Shown here piece by piece: positions 46,908-50,018 of a stretch of DNA of 64,000 nucleotides (positions within the stretch are counted from its first letter, which is position 1; the number at the start of each line of letters is the position of its first letter). The position numbers and the translations under genes are program-made. This DNA comes from an uncultured Gammaproteobacteria bacterium (lineage in GTDB: Bacteria; Pseudomonadota; Gammaproteobacteria; Enterobacterales; Psychrobiaceae), in the NCBI GenBank assembly GCA_913060565.1, contig CAJXRU010000010.1, positions 1 through 64,000 on the forward strand, given 5' to 3'. The notes under the pieces were generated by a model, which worked only from the letters and a program-made list of their open reading frames with translations, did not search any database and was not told where the DNA came from.

Positions 46908-47156
46908 ATGAGCGATAAGATCCGTACTCTTCAAGGTCGTGTAGTTAGCGACAAAATGGACAAATCTATTGTTGTCCTAATTGAACGTCGTGTTAAGCAT
47001 CCTATGTATGGCAAGTTCCTAACTCGCTCTACTAAGATCCACGCTCATGACGAGACTAACCAATGTAAAGAAGGCGATTTAGTGACTATCCGTCAAACTC
47101 GCCCTATCTCTAAGACTAAGTCTTGGGCATTGGAGTCAGTAGTTAAACAAGCTTAA
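46908..47156 (+). CDS. rpsQ: 30S ribosomal protein S17
   Basis: Early-binding 30S protein of the OB fold. 82 residues with [23 protein letters not shown] and [20 protein letters not shown]. Last gene of the S10 operon here, followed by a strong terminator. Confidence 0.98.
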
Positions 47157-47180
47157 TTTTTTAAGTTTATTTAACCAATA

Positions 47181-47208
47181 AAAAAGCGACCTTCGGGTCG
47201 CTTTTTTT
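47181..47208. terminator. Bidirectional terminator between the S10 operon and the EIIC-EAL gene
   Basis: AAAAGCGACC and GGTCGCTTTT pair around TTCG, with A and T runs outside. It ends the rpsQ transcript and, on the other strand, lies 34 bases past the stop of the convergent EIIC-EAL gene. Confidence 0.93.
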
Positions 47209-47241: not shown

Positions 47242-49284
47242 TTACATTGCATCTTTATCTAGCTGCCAATGAGTCGCAAATTGATGAGCTCTGTCTTTTG
47301 GCATCGCTTCCGCGTAGTACCATCCCTGAATGACATCGACCTGTAATTCGCTAACCCAGTCTTTCTCATCTGAGTTTTCGACGCCTTCAGCAACGACCGT
47401 TAGTTTGAGTTCGCGAAACATTTTCACCAATTGTCCATATATACTCCGACCCTTTGCTGTTTTGCAGCGCTCTAAGAAAGTTCGGTCAAGCTTAATGATA
47501 CTTAAGTTCAACTTTGAAAGTATCGACAGATTTGAATACCCTGTTCCAAAATCATCAAGCGCGACTTCGACGCCCACTCGATTTAGCCTTTCAATATGTT
47601 GATTAATGACATTGGTATTTTCTAAGAAATTTGACTCGATTATTTCTACCGTTAACTGACTGGGAAATGACTCAAAGTTATCACAGATTAAACTTATTAA
47701 GTCACGATTGAGTAAGCTGTCTGGACAAAGGTTAATGCTAATTCTTGGCGCGAAGTTCTTTTGGCGCCAATAGGTCAAATCTAATGCTGCACGTTCAATT
47801 ACCCAGCGGTCTATTGTCTCGGAAATATGATTTTCGTACAAAGTAGTCAAAAAGTAGGGGTTTTTGATGTTGCCGTCTTTGTCACGCAGCCTCATTAAAC
47901 TTTCATAGCCGTAAAGACGATTGGTGGCGACGCTGATCTGAGGCTGATAATACAATATGAGGTCGCCATGGCTAATTTCTTCGAGTGTATTGACTAAAAA
48001 GGAGTCGTCATCGAGTGCTTGATGTTTATAGGTGAAATGCCGAGACTCATCTTTATTCTCTACATGCTGAGGCAACGATAACGCCTCGTCAAAGTTGATA
48101 ATTGCGGAATCAACGGCGCGATACCGATAACTTAGATTGACAAAGGGAACATAGATTGCCGCGTTAATTGCAATTAGCGTAAGCTGAAACGCGATAACCC
48201 ACAAACTCTCGCTCACTATCCAACCTTGGATGAAAAAAGGCATACTCCAAGAGACGGTTCCGCCGTTATATGGTAACCAGCCACTAGAAAGAAATTGATA
48301 GGCGAGTGTAAAGTTAACTACTGGACAGACAATGAAAGGAATAAAGTAGATTGGATTTAGAACGATGGGTAGGCCATAGAGAATTACTTCATTCATGTTA
48401 AATAGCGTAAAAGGAATACTTAACCGCGCGATGGAGTTTTCGTGATCTTTACGGTTCTTTATCAAAATGGCGATGATTAACCCAAACATGCCCCCTGCAC
48501 CCCCAAGAAATACGAATGTGTCGAAAAACGAAATCATGGTCATATTTGGTAAAAATTCTTCATACAAAAATGAATTACCAAATAATGAGTCGAACGCATT
48601 TGAACCATGAACGCCTACCAACCAAAATAGACTTGTTAGCAGTTGCCTGATTAATCCTTTCTCATAGAGCTCTCTTTCTTGGAGGAAATTACTAAACGGT
48701 GCAAATATCCAGTCAGTAATCACCGCACCATAAGGAACCACGATATATAAGGTGATAAAGACCAGAATAAATGGCGTCACCATTTGTAAGTTTACCCGTA
48801 AGAATCGGCTAATCCCGAGTAAGCTTGCCGTTGTTAGTTTTAAGAGGTGGAAATAGAAACGCAGTAGATAACTGCTTAAAGACGGTATAACTATTGCGTA
48901 AATAGTTGCGTGGGACGAGGGGATGACAAGAGCTCCATCTTCGAACAACACATAACTGCCATGTGTTAGAAAACAAACGAGTCCGAGTAATGAACCACCG
49001 ATGGGGTTGACTCCAAGGTTTTTTGACAAATAAAAACCTATCGAGATAACCATCATTATCGGGTATATCAGCAAGATAATGGATAATTCTCGACTAAAGG
49101 ACTCCACGCTTATGTCGCCCAGTGAAAAGTCTTGAACTGCGAATGTATTAAAATGGGTAACGAGACTTTGTACCACCAAAAAGCTTGCAGTGAGGGTTAG
49201 AAAAGCAATTAAAGTAATAAATGCTTCCCGTAAACTCAGTAAATAAATGCTATTGACTACCTTAACTAAGCGAGCATGTAACAT
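47242..49284 (-). CDS. PTS EIIC-like membrane domain fused to c-di-GMP phosphodiesterase (EAL)
   Basis: A 680-residue fusion. Residues 1-395 resemble EIIC of the lactose/cellobiose/chitobiose PTS family: ten or so hydrophobic segments, FWLVGVHG (220-227), and NEVILYGLPIVLNP (298-311), both family motifs that lie in the sugar site. Residues about 425-670 are an EAL domain with ESLMR (461-465, Ser in place of Ala), Asn518, Glu547, DDFGTGYSN (577-585), Lys598, EGVEN (633-637) and QGW (653-655), so all metal and catalytic residues expected for hydrolysis are present. No EIIA or EIIB domain or gene is near. AAGGGA lies before the ATG. Likely an inner-membrane sensor that lowers c-di-GMP; that the EIIC part senses sugar is inference. 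Confidence 0.9.
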   Translation of the reverse strand: MLHARLVKVVNSIYLLSLREAFITLIAFLTLTASFLVVQSLVTHFNTFAVQDFSLGDISVESFSRELSIILLIYPIMMVISIGFYLSKNLGVNPIGGSLLGLVCFLTHGSYVLFEDGALVIPSSHATIYAIVIPSLSSYLLRFYFHLLKLTTASLLGISRFLRVNLQMVTPFILVFITLYIVVPYGAVITDWIFAPFSNFLQERELYEKGLIRQLLTSLFWLVGVHGSNAFDSLFGNSFLYEEFLPNMTMISFFDTFVFLGGAGGMFGLIIAILIKNRKDHENSIARLSIPFTLFNMNEVILYGLPIVLNPIYFIPFIVCPVVNFTLAYQFLSSGWLPYNGGTVSWSMPFFIQGWIVSESLWVIAFQLTLIAINAAIYVPFVNLSYRYRAVDSAIINFDEALSLPQHVENKDESRHFTYKHQALDDDSFLVNTLEEISHGDLILYYQPQISVATNRLYGYESLMRLRDKDGNIKNPYFLTTLYENHISETIDRWVIERAALDLTYWRQKNFAPRISINLCPDSLLNRDLISLICDNFESFPSQLTVEIIESNFLENTNVINQHIERLNRVGVEVALDDFGTGYSNLSILSKLNLSIIKLDRTFLERCKTAKGRSIYGQLVKMFRELKLTVVAEGVENSDEKDWVSELQVDVIQGWYYAEAMPKDRAHQFATHWQLDKDAM

Positions 49285-49572
49285 CGAACAACGTCCCTTG
49301 AATTGGTTTACTTTGTTAAATGATAGACGAATATCTTATTGTTGCTTTTTATACTGATAAATTGGGATGAAATCGGTGACGACCTCTTCGCCCGATCATG
49401 TTACTTAGTTGAAATAGTGGTTTTGTGATCTGTATCTCTTCGTCATAATCATTAGTTCGCTGCCAATGCTATTAGAACCTCTGTAAGTGATTGTTTCTCA
49501 CGTTGATAAGCTTAAAAAATGCGCAGTTGATGCTAAATTGAACTTGCCCTTTCTAAATTATTTTTACTTTGT

Positions 49573-49578
49573 TATACT
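49573..49578 (+). promoter_or_regulatory. -10 element of the spc operon promoter
   Basis: TATACT followed by ATCGCGCC as discriminator and TTAATGGG, closely similar to the rplJ promoter (TATAAT, TTTGCGCCC, TAATGGG). A matching -35 hexamer is not evident; TTTCTA at 49550 is the best at 17 bases. Confidence 0.6.
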
Positions 49579-49584
49579 ATCGCG

Positions 49585-49621
49585 CCTCTTAATGGGAAGA
49601 GGTCCATATCAATCGGTATGG
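49585..49621 (+). promoter_or_regulatory. Double hairpin in the rplN leader
   Basis: CCTCTT/AAGAGG (49585-49602) and CCATA/TATGG (49604-49621) form two adjacent stem-loops at the 5' end of the spc message. Role unknown; 5' end stabilisation is possible. Confidence 0.45.
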
Positions 49622-49649
49622 ATTTAGTTAAATTAGCGGAGCATATAAC

Positions 49650-50018
49650 ATGATCCAAATGCAATCTAAACTTGACGTAGCAGATAACTCTGGTGCCCGT
49701 CGAGTACAATGTATTAAGGTTCTTGGCGGTTCACACCGTCGTTATGCGCGCGTTGGTGATATCATCAAAGTTTCTGTAAAAGAAGCTATTCCTCGCGGTA
49801 AAGTGAAGAAAGGTGATGTAATGAACGCCGTAGTTGTTCGTACGTCTAAAGCAATCCGTCGTGCAGACGGAAGCGCAATTCGTTTCGACAACAATGCAGC
49901 TGTAATGTTAAATGCTAACTTACAGCCTGTTGGTACTCGAATCTTTGGTCCAGTAACGCGTGAACTACGTAACGAAAAGTTCATGAAAATCGTTTCACTG
50001 GCTCCAGAAGTACTGTAA
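49650..50018 (+). CDS. rplN: 50S ribosomal protein L14
   Basis: Sits at the intersubunit bridge B8. 122 residues beginning [19 protein letters not shown], ending [13 protein letters not shown]. First gene of the spc operon, with its own promoter because the EIIC-EAL gene separates it from the S10 operon. Confidence 0.99.

Follow-up and report, generated by a model that had tools for sequence, protein, structure and literature searches.

An EIIC-EAL fusion between the S10 and spc ribosomal operons as a candidate PTS-independent membrane sensor controlling c-di-GMP hydrolysis

Results

The S10-spc junction and its fusion gene

The window analysed here is a 64,000-nucleotide stretch of contig CAJXRU010000010.1, from an uncultured gammaproteobacterium of the Psychrobiaceae (assembly GCA_913060565.1, referred to below as G000). 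One part of it contains the following features:

46908..47156, plus strand: rpsQ (S17), last gene of the S10 operon
47180-47207, no strand assigned: bidirectional Rho-independent terminator, serving both the S10 operon and the fusion gene that converges on it; ancestral, as seen in congeners with an empty junction
47242..49284 (stop included), minus strand: EIIC-EAL fusion gene, 680 aa; intact ORF, ATG start, profile matches
48121..49263, minus strand: EIIC domain, residues 8-388, lactose/cellobiose family; TIGR00410 match, 3qnq alignment, structure match
47983..48120, minus strand: linker, residues 389-434; AlphaFold model
47290..47982, minus strand: EAL phosphodiesterase domain, residues 435-665; Pfam, full catalytic set, structure match
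49568..49649, plus strand: promoter region and leader of the spc operon, with TATACT at 49573-49578; ancestral, from a seven-congener alignment
49650..50018, plus strand: rplN (L14), first gene of the spc operon

The fusion gene lies between the S10 and spc operons, in the interval from the end of S17 (47156) to the start of L14 (49650), as the first-pass annotation had proposed. Its second claim, that EIIC and EAL are fused in one frame, is confirmed by the Pfam matches in the 680-aa ORF: PTS_EIIC at residues 20-321 (8.9e-15, 55 bits against a cut-off of 30.7) and EAL (PF00563) at residues 435-659 (7.4e-58, 196.1 bits against a gathering score of 31.3). The lacE/cello_pts_IIC profile (TIGR00410) also matches over residues 7-385 (6.9e-40), with a score of 137.3 bits that is below its curated cut-off of 236.

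A congener, G007, carries a copy of the protein at the same site that is 84% identical. Non-synonymous differences per site between the two copies amount to 0.09 in the EIIC part and 0.11 in the EAL part, with synonymous sites saturated, and the two parts thus appear equally constrained by purifying selection. The ORF is therefore not a chance one, since a copy so similar stands at the same site with both domains constrained; an assembly or frame artefact is ruled out by the same copy. The GC content of the gene is 0.405 and its GC3, 0.426, is the highest among the compared window ORFs with a length of 150 aa or more, which is mildly suggestive of acquisition.

We compared the junction in seven congeners (G000, G001, G002, G003, G007, G008 and G009). 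The intact fusion is found there in G000 and G007. In G008 the junction spans about 1.1 kb (L091 680-1795) and contains a 74-aa ORF ending in IIHGWYYADTKPKAIAHHFVTHLERYKGAM, the decayed EAL end of the fusion. The junction is empty in G001, G003 and G009, where it measures about 300-425 bp, and the 3.6-kb junction of G002 (L090 3262-6883) holds a methyltransferase-like gene and UspA-like genes, with no fusion. In G015, which belongs to another family, three other genes occupy the junction (L092 680-3257). Since different genes occupy it, as in G002 and G015, the junction appears to be an insertion-tolerant spacer between two transcription units. The fusion gene is missing from most congeners and decayed in one, so its role is dispensable.

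The empty junctions contain both the terminator, AAAAAGCGACCTTCGGGTCGC(T)7, which in some cases differs by one or two substitutions, and the spc promoter region (TATACT, CGCGCCTCTTAATGGGAAG); consequently both elements predate the fusion gene. The first-pass annotation had described a bidirectional terminator and a new-looking spc promoter; the terminator is indeed present, but the promoter is not new. A recent origin of either element is ruled out by the same congeners. The idea of a necessary link between fusion and locus was not borne out, as other genomes carry fusions elsewhere, including G003, whose fusion (37-39% identical) lies away from the junction. Nor is the junction a home site of the fusions: only G000, G007 and the G008 relic use it. 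In G329 a fusion lies directly behind rplQ (L100 7653-10381), at another ribosomal-operon edge, which is probably a coincidence.

The EIIC part and its sugar site

Sequence comparison found a single solved EIIC, Bacillus cereus ChbC (PDB 3qnq), which aligns over residues 8-385. The two sugar-site motifs reported by the first-pass annotation hold up in this alignment: GVHG falls on GIHG of 3qnq, with H226 on H250, and NEVILYGLPIVLNP falls on NEMVTFGMPIVMNP, with E299 on E334. In all, W221, H226, N298 and E299 occupy the positions of ChbC W245, H250, N333 and E334, and judging from these residues the sugar pocket looks to be kept. The sugar sites of chitobiose and glucose EIICs share no more than the equivalents of E334 and H250 (PMC11393339). 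Because both kinds of site share these two residues, keeping H226 and E299 does not name the sugar.

E299 is invariant in 45 aligned intact fusions, as are a GG-x-G motif (261-264) and several prolines of the EIIC part. H226 is retained throughout the clade of the window protein, and a second fusion subclade has asparagine in place of this histidine (GxNGH for GxHG); the EIIC pocket is therefore not uniform across the fusions. One genome, G252, has three EIIC-EAL fusions clustered together and followed by a GAF-GGDEF-EAL gene (L118 3237-10896), all three with the histidine replaced by asparagine. Most fusions also lack a near-invariant P-x-x-V-P...S-F stretch common to stand-alone EIICs (176-187 in Escherichia coli ChbC). 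The positive charges that flank it suggest that the stretch is cytoplasmic, and it is possibly involved in the work with EIIB.

The EAL part and the predicted structure

The window protein has E461, N518, E547, E550, D577, D578, K598, E633, E636 and Q653, and these ten metal-binding, catalytic and loop residues are all invariant in the 45 intact fusions, which span down to about 20% overall identity with it. The full catalytic set noted in the first-pass annotation is thus present and general to the intact fusions. The signature triplet reads ESL, with the metal-binding E retained. From established EAL biochemistry and these retained residues, the protein is expected to be an active c-di-GMP hydrolase; a degenerate EAL domain is ruled out by the presence of every catalytic residue.

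The AlphaFold model of the fusion has a mean pLDDT of 84.1 and a pTM of 0.57; the relative placement of the domains is unreliable. One long helix (361-439), of low confidence at 398-421, starts in the final EIIC helix and reaches the EAL domain. Foldseek matches the model to the EAL structures of PaMorA, BifA, DosP and PdeA and also to ChbC 3qnq, the latter with a TM-score by target length of 0.48 and an rmsd of 9 A. The predicted structure is consistent with an EAL fold and, moderately so, with a ChbC fold.

Distribution and phylogeny of the fusions

A search with the EIIC part in 395 genomes of the order returned many fusion-sized frames (about 675-740 aa) beside stand-alone EIICs of 430-475 aa. 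One further fusion-sized frame was found in a class sample of 369 genomes and a few more in a phylum sample, one of them in another class. The collected ORF set comprises 47 fusions, 45 of them intact, and 12 stand-alone EIICs; the fusions represent many families of the order, plus an alphaproteobacterial plasmid. Named carriers include a Pseudoalteromonas plasmid and Tritonibacter mobilis plasmids, where the NCBI label is "EAL domain-containing protein". For the T. mobilis plasmid fusion (Alphaproteobacteria, L139 5977-7983), horizontal transfer is likely. Two fusions are broken by stops (G070, L065 631-2280; G387, L135 2627-4381), which argues that losses are recent and repeated.

In an EIIC tree, built by a quick method and with several long rows included, all 45 intact fusions fall on one side of a single branch and the 12 stand-alone EIICs on the other (SH-aLRT 99), with the window protein and its G007 counterpart inside the fusion clade. 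The EAL tree requires at least two label changes for the fusions and places the window protein inside a starred group of 20 that are all fusions. The simplest reading would be one ancient fusion event, with later loss and horizontal movement.

The neighbours of the fusions elsewhere include GGDEF or EAL genes, adjoining or near the fusion at several loci, a LacZ-type glycosidase near one fusion and a cellulose/chitin-binding exoprotein near another; as pointers to a role, these are weak hints only. In G156 the fusion is immediately preceded, on its own strand, by a Cache-GGDEF gene (L136 1475-5092), and the two could form an opposing cyclase-phosphodiesterase pair.

PTS components in the genus and in the carriers

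In the window genome, estimated to be 100% complete, the fusion is the sole PTS_EIIC. The first-pass annotation had found no EIIA or EIIB gene near it; this holds for the window and extends to the genome, as neither PTS_IIB (PF02302) nor lactose-type PTS_IIA (PF02255) had a match in G000 and eight congeners. Moreover, HPr (PF00381, which also covers NPr) had no match in any of ten genomes of the genus and matches in 36/36 other genomes searched; Enzyme I (PF05524) had none in nine genomes of the genus and matches in all three others. These searches used draft genomes and a few Pfam models, the phosphocarrier and EIIA/EIIB ones being PF02302, PF02255, PF00381 and PF05524. Since no HPr/NPr or enzyme I match was found in any genus genome searched, even PTS-Ntr appears to have been lost across the window genus, unlike in all other sampled families. 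Among 38 fusion carriers, 19 are without any PF02302 EIIB, and several others do have EIIB genes.

Set beside a lactose/cellobiose PTS permease, the fusion has the sugar-site residues but a score below the TIGR00410 cut-off, and neither EIIB/EIIA nor HPr/EI was detected to serve it. Because HPr, EI, PTS_IIA and PTS_IIB all went undetected, a role as PTS permease or phosphoreceiver is excluded for it in this genus, provided that the phosphocarriers are genuinely missing.

Discussion

We propose, with a probability of roughly 0.6, that the fusion is a PTS-independent membrane ligand sensor that gates a c-di-GMP phosphodiesterase, its EIIC part being derived from a former PTS permease. As the genus seems to be without the rest of the PTS machinery, the EIIC part is probably a pure sensor. 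The first-pass annotation had already taken the EIIC part for a membrane sensor or a transport-coupled switch, and the apparent absence of the whole PTS strengthens the case for a sensor over a permease. Its candidate ligands were cellobiose and chitobiose, and binding, which it expected to lower c-di-GMP, could either lower or raise it.

EIICs are elevator-type homodimers (PMC7329351), and like the solved EIICs the EIIC part would be dimeric, placed in the inner membrane. The retained H226/E299 pocket would admit a small molecule, probably a sugar, which when bound would bias the elevator movement expected from EIIC biochemistry. This movement would be transmitted along helix 361-439 to the EAL domains. 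EAL enzymes are regulated via their dimers, and a shift in EAL dimer packing would then alter the hydrolysis of c-di-GMP to pGpG. In the window, the fusion gene has no sugar gene next to it. Whether such proteins form a receptor class, in which a PTS permease deprived of its energy source became a dedicated sugar receptor and an elevator-type transporter serves as an allosteric sensor in seemingly PTS-free bacteria, is a broader proposal for which we see the odds as even.

The retained sugar-site residues and the full EIIC length would also suit a transport-coupled switch, in which sugar crosses the EIIC part unphosphorylated, by facilitated diffusion, and the transport cycle rather than static binding sets EAL activity. 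Any transport by the fusion would indeed be facilitative, since no phosphorylation machinery was detected. However, most fusions lack the near-invariant stretch of the stand-alone EIICs, and no catabolic gene adjoins the window gene; we regard this alternative as unlikely. Slightly more doubtful still is a role as a membrane anchor only, with EIIC localising an EAL enzyme that is unregulated or controlled through its expression and the pocket left as a relic. The altered pocket histidine of some fusions would fit such a relic, but E299, the GG-x-G motif and several prolines, all invariant in divergent fusions, would be superfluous in a simple anchor, and its EIIC part would not be expected to be under constraint equal to that of the EAL part.

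The ESL triplet could recall a c-di-GMP receptor that, like LapD or FimX, is degenerate and non-catalytic, but all metal-binding and catalytic residues are present and invariant and the same protein has no GGDEF partner, which makes this very improbable. The least probable reading, in our view, is a PTS-linked trigger enzyme, on which the EIIB of another system docks or which it phosphorylates via the EIIC part, so that PTS flux is reported to the EAL domain. EIIB genes do occur in several other fusion carriers, and an EAL enzyme under PTS control has a precedent in PdeS (PMC6877527), but HPr, EI, PTS_IIA and PTS_IIB are undetected in the window genus and half of the carriers lack a PF02302 EIIB.

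The EIIC-EAL architecture itself is already known and catalogued as rare. What is new is that the fusions form a single clade, that the EAL active site and the EIIC glutamate are universally retained in it, and that it occurs in a genus without detectable PTS. We found no functional study of an EIIC-EAL protein in the open-licence literature. At several fusion loci a 787-aa neighbour reads as DNA polymerase II (polB). Because several fusions adjoin this polB-like gene and VC1212 of Vibrio cholerae is polB, VC1211 may be a candidate member of the family. One screen that includes VC1211 among predicted EAL proteins scored it negative for binding of c-di-GMP (PMC4624772).

The presence of the gene, intact and under constraint, in a genus without detectable PTS separates the sensor from phosphotransfer. 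It makes possible a clean test of whether an EIIC fold alone can turn ligand binding into a second-messenger change, and the solved EIIC structure supplies candidate pocket residues for mutation.

Comparison with known systems

A census of c-di-GMP sensory domains lists the PTS_EIIC-EAL architecture, with PTS_EIIC rare in c-di-GMP proteins, and treats PTS_EIIC as a phosphoreceiver domain answering to PTS phosphorylation (PMC8846402). The window protein has the same two Pfam domains but belongs to a genus in which no PTS is detectable. Since this genus lacks a detectable PTS and half of the carriers lack a PF02302 EIIB, phosphoreception cannot be the general mechanism.

With the ChbC/CelB/LacE EIICs (B. 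cereus 3qnq, E. coli ChbC) the fusion shares a full-length alignment and the same sugar-site histidine and glutamate. It differs from them in its EAL domain, its separate clade, the lack of EIIB/EIIA partners and a score below the TIGR00410 cut-off, and most fusions differ further in missing the P-x-x-V-P...S-F stretch that these stand-alone EIICs have.

PdeS (VC1710) of V. cholerae is likewise an EAL phosphodiesterase and couples sugar state to c-di-GMP, but it does so with a PAS domain, is inhibited in trans by EIIA-Glc and has no described EIIC domain (PMC6877527). For a control of the PdeS type, the search covered HPr and EI (PF00381 and PF05524) and found no match to either in the genus. 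Other membrane EAL phosphodiesterases, with integral sensors such as MASE or CSS-motif domains, also combine a membrane input with a C-terminal EAL domain. Unlike theirs, the input of the fusion comes from a family of transporters whose sugar pocket has been solved, and for this reason its ligand classes are directly testable.
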